A stretch of DNA of 64,000 bases from positions 62,001 through 126,000 of the forward strand of contig NZ_AQXM01000063.1 in NCBI RefSeq assembly GCF_000376245.1. Reading direction: 5' to 3'. Below, piece by piece: positions 19,664 through 53,918 of the stretch. The position numbers and the translations under genes were made by a program. Origin of the DNA: Acaricomes phytoseiuli DSM 14247 (lineage in GTDB: Bacteria > Actinomycetota > Actinomycetes > Actinomycetales > Micrococcaceae). The notes below the pieces were generated by a model. It saw only the letters and a program-made list of their open reading frames with translations. It searched no databases and had not been told where the DNA came from. Position 1 is the first letter of the stretch; the number at the start of each line of letters is the position of its first letter.

Positions 19664-19679
19664 TCGAATATTTGTTCGG
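19664..19679. promoter_or_regulatory. LexA (SOS) box upstream of recA
   Basis: TCGAAT-ATTT-GTTCGG differs at two positions from the actinobacterial LexA box TCGAAC-N4-GTTCGA. A TACACT hexamer lies downstream (19687-19692), placing the box over the -35 region. Confidence 0.7.
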
Positions 19680-19902: not shown

Positions 19903-20964
19903 ATGCCAGCAGCACCGGACCGGGAGAAAGCGCTCGAAGCAGCTCTTGCCCAGATCGATAAGCAGTTCGGCAAAGGCTCGGTGATGCGCTTGGGGGATGA
20001 TATCCGGGCGCCTATCGAGACCATTCCCACAGGATCCATCGCGTTGGATGTGGCCCTCGGCATCGGAGGCTTGCCCCGCGGCAGGGTCGTCGAGATCTAT
20101 GGGCCGGAATCCTCCGGTAAAACCACTGTCGCCCTGCATGCGGTGGCCGGCGCTCAGCGCAATGGCGGCATAGCCGCCTTCATTGACGCCGAGCACGCTC
20201 TTGACCCCGATTACGCTGCGAAGCTCGGCGTCGATGTTGACGCCTTGCTGGTGTCTCAGCCGGATACCGGTGAGCAGGCGCTGGAGATCATGGACATGCT
20301 CGTGGGCTCGGGATCGCTCGACATCATCGTGATCGACTCGGTGGCCGCACTTGTGCCGCGTGCCGAAATTGAAGGGGAGATGGGCGACAGCCACGTCGGG
20401 CTCCAGGCTCGACTCATGAGCCAGGCCCTGCGGAAGATCACGGGCCGGTTGAACCAGACGAAGACCACGGCGATCTTCATCAACCAGCTCCGGGAGAAGA
20501 TCGGCGTCTTCTTCGGCAGCCCGGAGACGACTACGGGTGGTAAAGCCCTCAAGTTCTATGCCTCCGTCCGTATCGACGTCCGTCGGATCCAGACGCTCAA
20601 GGAGGGCGCTGATTCGGTAGGCAACCGGACCAAGGCGAAAATCGTCAAGAACAAGATGGCCCCGCCTTTCAAGCAGGCGGAGTTCGATATCCTTTACGGG
20701 CAGGGTATCTCCCGAGAGGGTGGCATCATCGACCTGGGCGTTGAGCAGGGGATCATCAAGAAATCGGGTTCCTGGTTCACTTACGACGGTGATCAGCTGG
20801 GCCAGGGCATGGAGAACTCCCGGCGTTTCCTCAAGGATAATCCGGAGCTCGCAGCTGAGCTGGAGCGTCTGATCAAAGAGAAGCTCGGTGTGGGTGTGAA
20901 GCCGCTCGCCGAGACCGATGATGAAGCGCCCGAAACAGCTTTGCGAGCGGTCGAAGGCGGCTGA
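19903..20964 (+). CDS. recA: RecA recombinase
   Basis: RecA drives homologous recombination and triggers LexA cleavage. The 353-residue protein shows Walker [10 protein letters not shown] (residues 67-75), [21 protein letters not shown] and the DNA-binding loop region [31 protein letters not shown]. Length is normal and there is no intein. GAGGAG lies 6 nt before ATG 19903. It has two damage-type promoter signals upstream and is followed by recX with a 4-nt gap. Confidence 0.98.
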
Positions 20965-33026: not shown

Positions 33027-33773
33027 TCAGATGGAGCGTAGGACGGTGACCACTTTGCCCATGATGGTTGCGTGGTCGCCCAGGATCGGCTCGTACTGCG
33101 TGTTCTGCGGAAGCAGCCAGGTGTGTCCGTCGCGCTGCCGGAAGGTCTTGACCGTCGCTTCATCGTCGAGGAGCGCCGCTACGATATCGCCGTTCACAGC
33201 GTCGTTCTGCCGGCGCACCACAACCCAGTCGCCATCGCAGATGGCAGCGTCGATCATCGAGTCCCCGACGATCTTGAGCATGAACAGCTCTCCGTGCCCT
33301 ACTAGCTGGCGGGGCAGGGGCATGACATCCTCGACCGCCTGATCTGCGAGGATCGGCCCGCCCGCAGCAATGCGTCCCACGAGGGGGACCATCGCCGTGT
33401 CCTGGGCACTGCCGAGCTGCGCTACGTCGATTCCACTGCTGCTGCGCAGATTCGCGGCGTCGGGCACTCCTTCGATATCAACGGTGCTCTCTTCGCCAAG
33501 GGTCAGCGGGATGAGCACTTCCATGGCCCGGGGGCGTTTGGGGTCTCTGCGCAGATAGCCGAGCTTCTCCAGCTGGGTGAGCTGATGCGTGACGCTGGAA
33601 AGGCTCGCGAGTCCCACGAGATCTCCGATCTCACGCATCGAGGGCGGGTATCCGCGCGTGTTGATCGTGCGCTGGATGCCTTCGAGGATTTTCTTCTGCC
33701 GGACGGTCAGTCCCTTGAATCCGCCCTCAGCTGTTCGAGGTGCCTGGCGCCGTGAGCTCTCCTGGATTGCCAT
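33027..33773 (-). CDS. lexA: LexA, SOS repressor
   Basis: LexA represses DNA-damage genes until RecA promotes its self-cleavage. From ATG 33773 it has 248 residues. The winged helix is [44 protein letters not shown]. The cleavage site is in VGRIAAGGP (Ala-Gly), the catalytic Ser in VGDSMID and the Lys in EATVKTF. An in-frame GTG at 33827 would add 18 residues; ATG 33773 has AAAGGG 8 nt upstream. It converges on dinG and is divergent from the LysM gene. Confidence 0.95.
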
Positions 33774-33913: not shown

Positions 33914-33929
33914 TCAAACATATGTTCTA
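33914..33929. promoter_or_regulatory. LexA box controlling lexA
   Basis: TCAAAC-ATAT-GTTCTA has two mismatches from TCGAAC-N4-GTTCGA. It overlaps a minus-strand -35-like TTTGAT, with TATTCT about 17 bp further on, so LexA would repress its own gene. Confidence 0.65.
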
Positions 33930-33980: not shown

Positions 33981-34017
33981 TCGAAAATAGTTTCGAACAC
34001 CTGGGGTTCTTGTTCGA
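33981..34017. promoter_or_regulatory. LexA box cluster controlling the LysM gene
   Basis: TCGAAA-ATAG-TTTCGA (33981-33996) is a perfect palindrome in its arms. It is followed by half-sites TCGAAC (33993-33998) and GTTCGA (34012-34017). A promoter TTCTTG-N17-TAGATT (34007-34035) overlaps the last half-site. Confidence 0.65.
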
Positions 34018-46201: not shown

Positions 46202-46579
46202 TCAGCGGAGCTTATGTGCGAAACGCAGCAGATTGCCGTCCGGGTCCACGTGGGCGCCTTCGCGGAGCCCGTAATCGGTGTCGATCGGCGTGCTCGTGGG
46301 GCAGTGCGACTCTGCAGCGCCAGAAACCCGATGCCACTGCTCGGCGAGCAAGTCCGCGTTATCGACTTCGATGAATGCCGAGGAGAAGTTGTGCTCCGGA
46401 TCGACGACCGGTACATGCCAGAGGTGCAGACGGATCTCACCCAGCTTGGCGAAGGCGTTTTCTTCATCGCCTTGATAGCGTTTCACCTCGAAACCGAGCG
46501 CAGAGTAGTGCCGGATCGACCTGTTCAAGTCGTTCACGGGAAATACCGGGGCGATTTGTTCGAAGAGCACATGGCTCAT
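46202..46579 (-). CDS. VOC-family (glyoxalase/bleomycin-resistance-like) protein
   Basis: From ATG 46579 the protein is 125 residues: IAPVFPVNDLNRSIRHYSALGFEV at the N-terminus and DYGLREGAHVDPDGNLLRFAHK at the C-terminus. It is a single VOC module resembling bleomycin-binding proteins. The ligand is unknown. ATG 46579 lies 7 nt after TAGGCT on the minus strand (46592-46587). Confidence 0.82.
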   Translation of the reverse strand: MSHVLFEQIAPVFPVNDLNRSIRHYSALGFEVKRYQGDEENAFAKLGEIRLHLWHVPVVDPEHNFSSAFIEVDNADLLAEQWHRVSGAAESHCPTSTPIDTDYGLREGAHVDPDGNLLRFAHKLR

Positions 46580-46640: not shown

Positions 46641-47786
46641 TCAGAACAGGGTCGACGCTGCTGCGGGTCGGGGGAGGGGCTGCTTCTCCGCTAGCAGCGG
46701 CAGGCTGCCCTGAGGGTAGTTGGCTTCTTCCTGGCGCGCGTCGGGATGGAAGTCATCAGGAGCGTTCTGCTCGAGTCTGTGCATGGCCGCTCCTGCTGCG
46801 CCGAAGCCGTGTGCGGCTTTAGCCGCTGCTACTCGACGAGCCAGCCACTTCCGGTATTCCGCGGGTGCGTAGGAGCCGCTGCCGTATAGCCGCCGGTACT
46901 TGCCCACGAGTGCGGGATGGTGCTGCGCCAACCAGGACATGAACCAGTCCCGCGTGCCGGACCGGAGGTGGAGTGCGCCCGCCGTGACTCCGGTGGCGCC
47001 GGCCGCAGCCAGAGCCGCGAAAAGCGAGTCCAGTGCTTCATCGGTATCGGTCAGCCAGGGCAGGATCGGCATCGCCATCACCCCGCAGGGGAGCCCTGCT
47101 TCGCGTAACCGCGAGATAAGCGCTAAGCGGGCTTTGGGCGCAGGCGTGCCGGGCTCGATGACCTGTGCCAGCGCTTCATCCGTGAGTGCCAGCGAGATCG
47201 CCATACCGATGGGTACGCTGCGGGCTGCGGACGCCAGCTCCGGAATGTCACGGCCTAACAGAGTCCCTTTGGTCAGAATCGACAGCGGGGTCCCGGAGTC
47301 GGCCAGTGCGCCGATGATGCCAGGCATCAACTGATAGCGGCCCTCTGCTCGCTGATAAGGATCAGTATTGGTGCCCAGGGCCACCGGTTCCCGCTGCCAG
47401 CGGGGGCGGGCCAGTTCTGCTCTGAGGACTTCGATGGTATTGACTTTGACCACGACTTGCGAGTCGAAATCCAGGCCGGGGTCGAAATCCAGGTAGGTGT
47501 GCGTTTTCCGGGCAAAGCAGTAGACGCAGGCGTGGGAGCAGCCGCGATAAGGATTGATGGTCCAGCGGAACGGCATGTTCGAAGAGCCCTGCACCGGGTT
47601 GAGTACACTTTTCGCCGCGACCTCGTGGAACGTTATGCCGGCGAATTCGGGCCTGCGCACGGTGCGCAGGAAGCCTTGTAGGGGTAATAGAACACCCTGT
47701 TGAGCCTTCGCGGATTCTGCCGCTGAGGTCTTTTCATCAGCGGGCTCCTGTTCGAGAAGAGCCTCTTGTTGTGCTGCCCATCGCAT
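46641..47786 (-). CDS. Rv2578c-like radical SAM protein behind a LexA box
   Basis: From ATG 47786 the protein is 381 residues. The cluster motif is in INPYRGCSHACVYCFARKTH (Cys-x3-Cys-x2-Cys), which places it among the Rv2578c/SplB-related radical SAM proteins. Other conserved stretches: VALGTNTDPYQRAEGRYQLM and ILTKGTLLGRDI. No reaction has been shown for this family to my knowledge. SplB itself repairs spore photoproduct, which fits a damage role. A LexA box sits 10 nt upstream of the start. Confidence 0.85.
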   Translation of the reverse strand: MRWAAQQEALLEQEPADEKTSAAESAKAQQGVLLPLQGFLRTVRRPEFAGITFHEVAAKSVLNPVQGSSNMPFRWTINPYRGCSHACVYCFARKTHTYLDFDPGLDFDSQVVVKVNTIEVLRAELARPRWQREPVALGTNTDPYQRAEGRYQLMPGIIGALADSGTPLSILTKGTLLGRDIPELASAARSVPIGMAISLALTDEALAQVIEPGTPAPKARLALISRLREAGLPCGVMAMPILPWLTDTDEALDSLFAALAAAGATGVTAGALHLRSGTRDWFMSWLAQHHPALVGKYRRLYGSGSYAPAEYRKWLARRVAAAKAAHGFGAAGAAMHRLEQNAPDDFHPDARQEEANYPQGSLPLLAEKQPLPRPAAASTLF

Positions 47787-47795
47787 ATTTCGTAT

Positions 47796-47811
47796 TCGAA
47801 CATATATTCGA
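47796..47811. promoter_or_regulatory. LexA (SOS) box of the radical SAM gene
   Basis: TCGAAC-ATAT-ATTCGA has one mismatch from TCGAAC-N4-GTTCGA, the best box in the window. On the minus strand it lies between TTGATT (-35 like) and TACGAA (-10 like), in the spacer, where LexA would block polymerase. Confidence 0.75.
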
Positions 47812-47902
47812 ATCAAGGTCAAGGGCGAGGGCCGCGTCCGGCGGGCCTGGGGTCGAGCTCCTGGCTGGTATTGTGATGTGAGTCACGCGAAAGGCGGTCT
47901 TG

Positions 47903-51341: not shown

Positions 51342-51342
<1 letters not shown>

Positions 51343-53918
51343 TGCGTATACCTCTTTCATGGCTGCGTGATTACACCGCACTGCCTGCGGAAGCCTCTGC
51401 GGAGGATCTGATGGCGGATCTCGTCCGAGTGGGTATCGAAGAAGAGGCGGCACACCGTTCCGAGGTTTCCGGGCCGGTCGTCGTCGGCCAGGTGCTCTCG
51501 AAGGTCGAGGAGCCGCAGAAGAACGGCAAGACCATCAACTGGTGCCAGGTGCGGGTAGCCCCCGAAGGGCAGGGGCCGCAGTGGGGCGGGGAAGTCCTCG
51601 CCGGCGAAGGGATTTCCCCGGACGGCGTCCAGGGCATCGTCTGCGGTGCGCATAACTTGCAGGAAGGCGATAAGGTCATCGTCACCCTGCCGGGCGCTGT
51701 GCTGCCCGGAGAGTTCCGGATCACTCCGCGCAAAACCTATGGGCATGTCTCTGCCGGCATGATCGCCTCGGCTCGGGAGCTGGGCATCGGCCAAGAGCAC
51801 GATGGCATCCTCGTGCTTGCGGATCTGGGCCTGGATGCGGAGCCCGGGACGAGCGCCTATGAGCTGCTGGGGCTCGATGAGGAAGCCGCTGAGGTGAGCC
51901 CCACCCCGGATCGCGGCTATCAGTTCTCGATGCGCGGCATCGCCCGCGAGTACGCCCATGCCACCGGCACGCTCGATCAGTTCACGGACCCGGCGACGCT
52001 GCCGCAGCCGGCTCCCAGCACTGGCGAGGGGCATCCTGTGAGCATCGACGATGACGCTCCGATTCACGGCCGGGCCGGTGCGGATCGGTTCGTCGCCCGG
52101 ATCGTGCGGGGGATCGACCCGCAGCGGCCGACTCCGGACTGGTTGGCTCGTAGATTGCGGCTCGCCGGAATCCGGCCGATCTCGCTCGCCGTGGATATCT
52201 CCAATTACGTCATGCTCGAGCTCGGCCAGCCGATGCACTTCTACGACCTCGGGACGCTTTCCGGGCCGATCGTGGTGCGTCGTGCACGCTCCGGTGAGCG
52301 GCTGACCACCCTGGATGGCAAGGATCGCGCGCTTGACTCCGAAGATCTGCTGATCGCCGATGACTCCGGGCCCATAGGTCTGGCCGGGGTCATGGGTGGG
52401 GCCAGCACGGAGATCTCCGAGCAGAGCAAGGACGTGCTTATCGAAGCCGCGCACTTCGAAGAAGTCTCCGTGGCGCGTACTCGCCGTCGGCACAAACTAT
52501 CGTCGGAGGCGGCGAAGCGTTTCGAGCGCGGAGTGGATTGGCGGATCGCCGATATCGCTGCGCAGCGGGCCGCTGATCTGCTCGTCGAGCTGGCCGGGGG
52601 TGAGGCGGAGCAGCGAGTCACCGATATCGGCCAGGAGCCGGAGACGCAGCGGATCGTGCTGCCGATGGACTACCCGGCCCAACGGATCGGCGTCGATTTC
52701 ACCGCTGAGCAGATCGAGACCAGCCTCCGGGATCTCGGAGCTGAGGTTACCGGGCCGGATGGGCAGGGCGACTACCTGGTCAACGTGCCATCGTGGCGGC
52801 AGGACCTGGCGACCAAGGACGATCTCGCTGAAGAGATCATCCGGCTCATCGGTTACGACAAGATTCCCGCGACTCTGCCAGTGGCCCCGCCGGGCCGTGG
52901 GCTGAGCCGGCCCCAGCAGCTGCGGCGCAGGCTCTACCAGGGGCTTGCCGATGCGGGGCTGACCGAGGTGATCGCCTACCCCTTCGTCTCCCGCGCTGCT
53001 AATCAGCGCTTCGGCACGGCCGGTTCAGCAGACTCAGCAGCACCAGATGCACCGATGGTGAAGCTGGCGAATCCGATCAGCGAGGAGTTCTCCTTTCTGC
53101 GGATCTCGATGCTCCCCGGTCTTCTGGAGACGGCCAAGCGCAATGTCTCCCGGGGCCTGAAGGATCTGGCGATCTTCGAGATCGGCTCGGTGTTCTTGCC
53201 CGGGCAGGCCGTGGGGTCTTCGAGCATTCCGCCGCTGGGTGAGCGCCCGGCTGATGATGTACTGAATGGCCTTGACGCCGGGATTCCGGATCAGCCCCTG
53301 CGCTTGGGTGCTGTGCTGGCCGGCCAGGAATCCAGGCCTGCGCCGGGGCACGCTCCCCGGGCCTGGGATTATGCCGATGCGCTCGACGTCGCGCGGCTCG
53401 CAGCCGCGCTGTTGGGCGTCGAACTCGTGGTCAACCAGGCCCAGCATCATGCTTTCCACCCGGGTCGCGCTGCGCAGCTGAGCCTGCGCAGTGGCGCACC
53501 GGTGGGCTATGCGGGGGAGCTGCATCCCAAGCTGCTCGCCGAATCCGATCTGCCGGCTCGTACCGCGGCACTCGAGCTGGATGTCAGTGCCCTGATCGAG
53601 GCGGCGCCGGAAGTCATCGTGGCGAAGCCACTCTCCACGTATCCGGCAGCCACCCAGGATGTCGCGTTGCTGGTTCCGCAGGAGCTGCCCGCGGTGCAGG
53701 TGCTGGAGACGCTGCGCGGCGGCGCCGGTGAACTGCTGGAACACATCGAACTGTTCGACGACTACCGGGGCCAGGGGGTGCCGGAGGGGCGCAAATCGCT
53801 TGCTTTCGGCCTGCGCTTCCGGGCGCCGGATCGGACGCTGACGGCGGATGAAGCCTCTGCGGCCCGGCAGGCCGCGGTCGCCGCCGCGGCGGAAGCATTC
53901 GGCGCCGAGCTGCGCTGA
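51342..53918 (+). CDS. pheT: PheT, phenylalanine-tRNA ligase beta subunit
   Basis: The 858-residue protein has the tRNA-binding OB fold at residues 40-150 (VVVGQVLSKVEE, IVCGAHNLQEGDKV) and B3/B4 editing parts (SPTPDRGYQFSMRGIARE, DISNYVMLELGQPMHFYD). B5 follows (RLIGYDKIPATLP), then a pseudo-catalytic core (LANPISEEFSFLRISMLPGLL), then the anticodon-binding FDX-ACB at the end (LRGGAGELLEHIELFDDYRG). Full length. It ends before a strong inverted repeat. Confidence 0.96.

Follow-up and report, generated by a model that had tools for sequence, protein, structure and literature searches.

The window, by which we mean the whole 64,000-nucleotide stretch of Acaricomes phytoseiuli DNA analyzed here, contains a radical SAM gene preceded by a palindrome that resembles a LexA (SOS) box. 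The locus raises the question of whether this gene belongs to the SOS regulon and, if so, on what its enzyme acts. An earlier note, made from the sequence, had described it as an Rv2578c-like radical SAM gene with a GCSHACVYC cluster, and both points were borne out. The window protein scored 503.4 bits with NF038135 (Rv2578c family; curated cut-off 430), which places it in that family, and 48 bits with PF04055 (radical SAM; cut-off 29.5), which together with its CX3CX2C motif places it in the radical SAM superfamily. Its score with NF033668 (PA0069 family) was 216.6 bits, below the cut-off of 360, and it is not a member of that family. The cluster residues C83, C87 and C90 were invariant both in 30 aligned relatives and in a set of 140 proteins. 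M1, R2 and W3 were likewise invariant in the 30 relatives, and the conserved start is the ATG at 47786, although a few relatives read GTG; the longer open reading frame of the ORF finder (TTG at 47822) begins within the −35 hexamer. A single-sequence AlphaFold2 model of the protein had a pLDDT of 38 and was unusable, and viral scans for relatives of the protein found none. The coordinates of the features are collected in Table 1.

Table 1. Features of the window bearing on LexA control of the radical SAM gene
Feature	Position in window	Strand	Basis or remark
Rv2578c-family radical SAM protein	46641..47786	-	381 aa, ATG start (MRW)
Codons of GCSHACVYC, CX3CX2C [4Fe-4S] motif, residues 82-90	47517..47543	-	sequence and translation
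Predicted -10 hexamer TCGAAT, overlaps box	47794..47799	-	conserved TC[GT]AAT; weak match
LexA (SOS) box TCGAATATATGTTCGA	47796..47811	-	one mismatch; conserved upstream of relatives
Predicted -35 hexamer TTGACC	47817..47822	-	sequence; TTG position kept in relatives
lexA (matched part)	33030..33716 (contig 95030-95716)	-	TIGR00498, 223 bits
LexA box TAGAACATATGTTTGA upstream of lexA	33914..33929	-	pattern scan
Second LexA box TCGAAACTATTTTCGA upstream of lexA	33981..33996	-	pattern scan
recA (matched part)	19918..20880 (contig 81918-82880)	+	TIGR02012, 565 bits
LexA box TCGAATATTTGTTCGG upstream of recA	19664..19679	+	pattern scan

Read 5' to 3' on the minus strand, the sequence at the gene start is ...CCTTGACCTTGAT-TCGAATATATGTTCGA-ATACGAAAT-ATGCGATGG. 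The palindrome departs from TCGAACN4GTTCGA at one position and stops 9 nt short of the ATG, so the one-mismatch box announced by the earlier note was found; a LexA box in the promoter was our mark of the LexA regulon, and the window gene carries it. The box lies inside a promoter-like layout of TTGACC, 17 nt, TCGAAT, 7 nt and ATG. TTGACC and TCGAAT correspond to the −35 and −10 like hexamers of the earlier note, but TCGAAT is a poor match and a sigma-70 scan called no promoter at this locus. In most loci only 7–9 nt separate the box from the ATG, which leaves no space for a ribosome-binding site, and a leaderless message is predicted. This layout suggests a LexA-repressed, leaderless promoter with a predicted transcription start at or beside the ATG.

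A palindrome of this kind can occur by chance. The window contained 8 sites with at most two mismatches, compared with 2.68 ± 1.47 expected, and none of 100 shuffles reached 8. Four of them precede recA (19664), lexA (33914 and 33981) and the radical SAM gene; the other four (5996, 27224, 55164, and 53419 in an 858-residue frame at 51342–53918) lie inside long open reading frames and are probably chance occurrences. The whole genome (2,419,519 bases) held 151 sites with at most two mismatches versus 140 for the reversed pattern, and 12 one-mismatch places in 2.42 Mb, about 0.0005 per 100 nt. Because the genome-wide counts are close to those of the reversed control, a single site is weak evidence: the site by itself is suggestive, and its conservation is decisive. 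The genes for RecA, LexA and the radical SAM protein, each with its own LexA box, lie in a 28-kb part of the window (19664–47811), and the three occur on one contig, within ∼30 kb, in several other genomes of the taxonomic family (e.g. G024, G032 and G058).

We therefore turn to the relatives. The gene was matched in 92 of the 149 genomes of the window's taxonomic family, and upstream DNA was taken from 90 of these, leaving out the window's own genome and G029, where the match is cut by the contig end. Within 100 nt upstream, mismatches to TCGAACN4GTTCGA numbered 0 in 8 genomes, 1 in 40, 2 in 25, 3 in 15 and 4 in 2, so that 73 of the 90 relatives had at most two, and the first base of the box lay 23–25 nt before the start in 86. 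At the same threshold, the controls gave 1/90 for the reversed pattern, 0/450 for dinucleotide shuffles and 1/981 for windows elsewhere upstream. All 39 loci examined from a second family, probably Mycobacteriaceae, had at most two mismatches (30 were perfect), as against 2/195 shuffles and 5/429 other upstream windows; these loci, like the other relatives examined from outside the window's taxonomic family, were mostly the best-scoring matches rather than a random sample. In a Streptomyces-like family, the core GAACN4GTTC was perfect in 11/11 loci with differing flanks (GGGAAC..GTTCTA), giving three mismatches in 9 of them. Five of five further loci had at most one mismatch. The boxes of Arthrobacter sp. 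StoSoilB13 and Streptomyces sp. BHT-5-2 read TCGAACATACATTCGA and GCGAACATGTGTTCTA, respectively. Two congeners (L083 and L084) have a second LexA-like palindrome at −57, some 33 nt farther from the start than the usual box.

The setting of the box was conserved as well, usually between TTGAC and TC[G/T]AAT. Among relatives with a box at −22 to −27, a TTG stood 11–12 nt before it in 61/89 of the taxonomic family and in 38/38 of the probable Mycobacteriaceae, and the right edge of the box read TCGAAT in 43/89, TCTAAT in 32/89 and TCTACT in 9/89. The deviating forms, GGGAAC..GTTCTA and TAGTAC..GTTCTA, found in Streptomyces-like genomes and in some members of the window's taxonomic family, depart from the textbook box and would fit the operator of another regulator that resembles a LexA box only by coincidence. 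We consider this extremely improbable. A TAGAAC..GTTCTA form also stands upstream of lexA itself in two loci (L204 and L214), and since TCTAAT is nearer to TATAAT, the GTTCTA half may reconcile the operator with a better −10. LexA ChIP and induction in S. venezuelae (PMC9380542) and the class-specific LexA motifs in Proteobacteria, both described below, also argue against another regulator. In the window's taxonomic family, 20/30 lexA loci had a box with at most one mismatch upstream (reversed control 0/30), and the corresponding recA value of 7/30 versus 1/30 is an undercount, as some loci, including that of the window, were wrongly oriented. The gene is almost certainly under LexA control.

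Radical SAM or SplB-like genes have been described as SOS-controlled in Gram-positive bacteria (PMC7739468; M. tuberculosis was among the species), in alpha- and betaproteobacteria (PMC3323433) and in Bacteroidetes (PMC8565304); the claim of such regulation is thus not new. The earlier note also mentioned a LexA box at Rv2578c of M. tuberculosis; relatives from a probably mycobacterial genus do carry the box, but no paper in the literature searched connected Rv2578c with LexA by its title. A study of S. venezuelae (PMC9380542) reports its radical SAM gene vnz_31145 as a LexA ChIP-seq target that rises 19.97-fold with mitomycin C; the paper names it only a “radical SAM protein” and likens it to thymine-crosslink repair enzymes. 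Its 14-letter box occurred in 99 of 392 Streptomyces-like genomes, and among 30 of these box loci one (L251, genome G990) adjoined an Rv2578c-family gene. In another genome, G765, chosen because the box position fitted, the sole copy of the 14-mer lies 25–38 nt before its sole NF038135 gene (525 bits). The published recA box is present in both genomes. On these sequence matches, vnz_31145 is very probably an Rv2578c-family member. The published vnz_31145 box lies in reverse orientation, and its reported position of −61 does not match its reported letters, which fall at −38 to −25 from the MRW start. A conserved palindrome, GGGAACAGGTGTTCTA, stands at −58 upstream of the G765 gene (L264), near the published −61; we take it as the better candidate operator, and the published SOS box may be misplaced. 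Taken together, the conserved operator, the same variants at lexA promoters, and the published ChIP-seq and induction data for a very probable family member make the membership in the SOS regulon proposed by the earlier note well supported.

LexA boxes were also seen in the sister family. A tblastn search of plasmid records gave 51 with relatives, and of these 12 were examined, ten proteobacterial and two actinobacterial. Of nine alphaproteobacterial loci, seven had GTTCN7GTTC, which we take to be the LexA motif of that class, in the 600 nt preceding the match, against a background of 1 per 20,025 nt; an Aeromonas locus had CTGTATATATAAACAG upstream, presumably a box of the enterobacterial type. 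Counting the actinobacterial boxes, LexA control is thus seen with three kinds of motif. Of the alphaproteobacterial proteins, three were scored, and all exceeded the cut-off of the PA0069 family (NF033668), which is likely what SOS studies of alphaproteobacteria call “splB”. The literature searched yielded no paper on PA0069 as a radical SAM protein.

The earlier note had also related the protein to SplB-type lyases. Spore photoproduct lyases (SPLs) were the best solved relatives of the family profile, accounting for 5 of 6 matches, all weak (E 0.005–0.012), and hhalign to SPL-like proteins gave E 2e-10. The phylogeny against SplB that the note had called for placed Rv2578c and PA0069 together on one side (100/100), with SPL-like proteins apart on the other and long branches between. 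No LexA box was present at six SPL-like actinobacterial loci, the best having three mismatches; among the loci sampled, the SOS link is a feature of the Rv2578c family and not of SPL-like proteins generally. By profile, alignment and tree, the kinship to SplB is real but distant.

SPL function, that is, SplB-type reversal of a thymine dimer through a cysteine-tyrosine hydrogen relay, would agree with the hhalign value, with the shared CX3CX2C, Tyr89 (Tyr97 of B. subtilis SPL) and EPGT motif, and with the description given to vnz_31145 (PMC9380542). The catalytic residues speak against it. Because the direct hhalign of alignment A1 with one SPL sequence covered 40 columns only, residues were mapped through the SPL-like actinobacterial proteins of alignment A2, in two alignments: SPL Cys140/141 corresponds to Thr139, Tyr98/99 to Phe91 and Tyr96/97 to Tyr89. 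In a survey of 140 proteins, drawn up after six intein-bearing proteins and a duplicate of the window protein had been left out, the Cys141 position was Thr in 139 and a gap in one, and the Tyr99 position was Phe in 125, Tyr in 14 and a gap in one. Only the three cluster ligands were cysteines kept in nearly all; Cys234 was present in 117/140. The fourth cysteine of SPL (Cys141 in B. subtilis) is reported to be required and is the likely hydrogen donor, and C141A inactivates SPL in spores (PMC3742179). With the essential cysteine replaced by Thr139, the SPL relay cannot operate as such. PF20903 was absent from the Pfam matches of the window protein up to E 1 and had no match in the whole genome; the window protein also lacks the fourth cysteine and the relay tyrosine. 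On its catalytic residues, identity with SplB was rejected, and we regard SPL activity of the window protein as very unlikely; the kinship to SplB-type lyases stands, but the SPL catalytic pair is absent.

These data leave the substrate to be considered. Some SOS gene products do not act on DNA, and radical SAM enzymes of similar size catalyze many reactions, so the gene could be SOS-controlled while its enzyme acts on a tRNA or rRNA base, a protein, a cofactor or a damaged nucleotide. The operator gives the timing of enzyme production and not its target, and no DNA-binding part was identified in the protein. The closest solved relatives by profile, however, are the weakly matching SPLs, and SOS control in Actinobacteria and in two proteobacterial classes suggests a direct role in damage; we judge a non-DNA substrate rather unlikely. 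Regulation and kinship together lead us to lean towards a DNA lesion as the target, and an uncharacterized DNA-repair reaction, as the earlier note had it, is reasonable to infer. The explanation that we consider probable is that LexA controls a radical SAM enzyme whose target is a DNA lesion and whose chemistry differs from that of SPL.

Such an enzyme would work as follows. In the undamaged cell, LexA on the palindrome between −35 and −10 would block the promoter, from which the transcript probably begins at the ATG. Upon DNA damage, activated RecA would promote self-cleavage of LexA, the promoter would open and the enzyme would be made. C83, C87 and C90 would bind a [4Fe-4S] cluster, and SAM would be cleaved to a 5'-deoxyadenosyl radical, which most likely would attack a damaged DNA base or a DNA crosslink. 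Since the SPL donor cysteine is replaced by Thr139 and the relay tyrosine mostly by Phe91, the reaction would require another hydrogen donor, consumption of SAM or a different chemistry.

The surroundings and variation of the gene gave further observations. A VOC/glyoxalase-like gene (46202–46579, minus strand) lies downstream of the radical SAM gene and is kept there in 5/6 congeners by tblastn. A search downstream of 146 family loci, 60 of which had no downstream sequence, matched only the window's own copy, and the VOC gene was not taken as a functional operon partner. A Sphingomonas locus (L273) has a VOC gene divergent from its PA0069 gene. Six of 145 family proteins (L037, L039, L044, L045, L052 and L082) carry an intein directly before the third cluster cysteine, so that their [4Fe-4S] site is complete only after splicing; NF038136 is an existing NCBI model for such members. 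Two 3.3-Mb genomes of the probably mycobacterial genus (G608 and G648) retain only weak fragments of the gene (E 1e-17 and 5e-22), as expected for decayed genomes.

Members of the Rv2578c family occur in genomes that are mycobacteria-like or Streptomyces-like, and members of its sister family, PA0069, in Proteobacteria. We suggest tentatively, with somewhat less than even confidence, that the two families make up one widespread class of radical SAM enzymes under LexA control, which repair some DNA lesion that is not the spore photoproduct and do so without the cysteine-tyrosine relay of SPL. If so, a direct-reversal or crosslink-opening activity has so far been overlooked despite the regular SOS control of its gene in Actinobacteria and in several Proteobacteria. 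The reaction behind a gene with such widely conserved LexA control is a testable question. The residue comparison indicates that spore photoproduct repair assays may be the wrong assays for this family, and, from the published mitomycin C induction in Streptomyces, DNA that is alkylated or crosslinked would be a first candidate substrate.

Compared with known systems, SPL (SplB; PF20903; PDB 4FHC–4FHG) has in common with the window family the radical SAM core, the EPGT motif and a weak profile match, but it possesses an essential cysteine and a relay tyrosine, whereas the window family is without the cysteine and usually without the tyrosine. The PA0069 family shares CX3CX2C with the window protein, GTNTDPYQ where it is found, and LexA boxes upstream, but is separate by its profile score. 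The S. venezuelae gene vnz_31145, which LexA binds and whose induction is about 20-fold, is very probably a member of the window gene's family; its promoter is leadered, with a Shine-Dalgarno sequence and the palindrome at −58, whereas the window gene is predicted to be leaderless. With the Rv2578c family as a whole, the window gene, whose copy has no intein, shares family membership, start, cluster and operator, and its divergence is normal.
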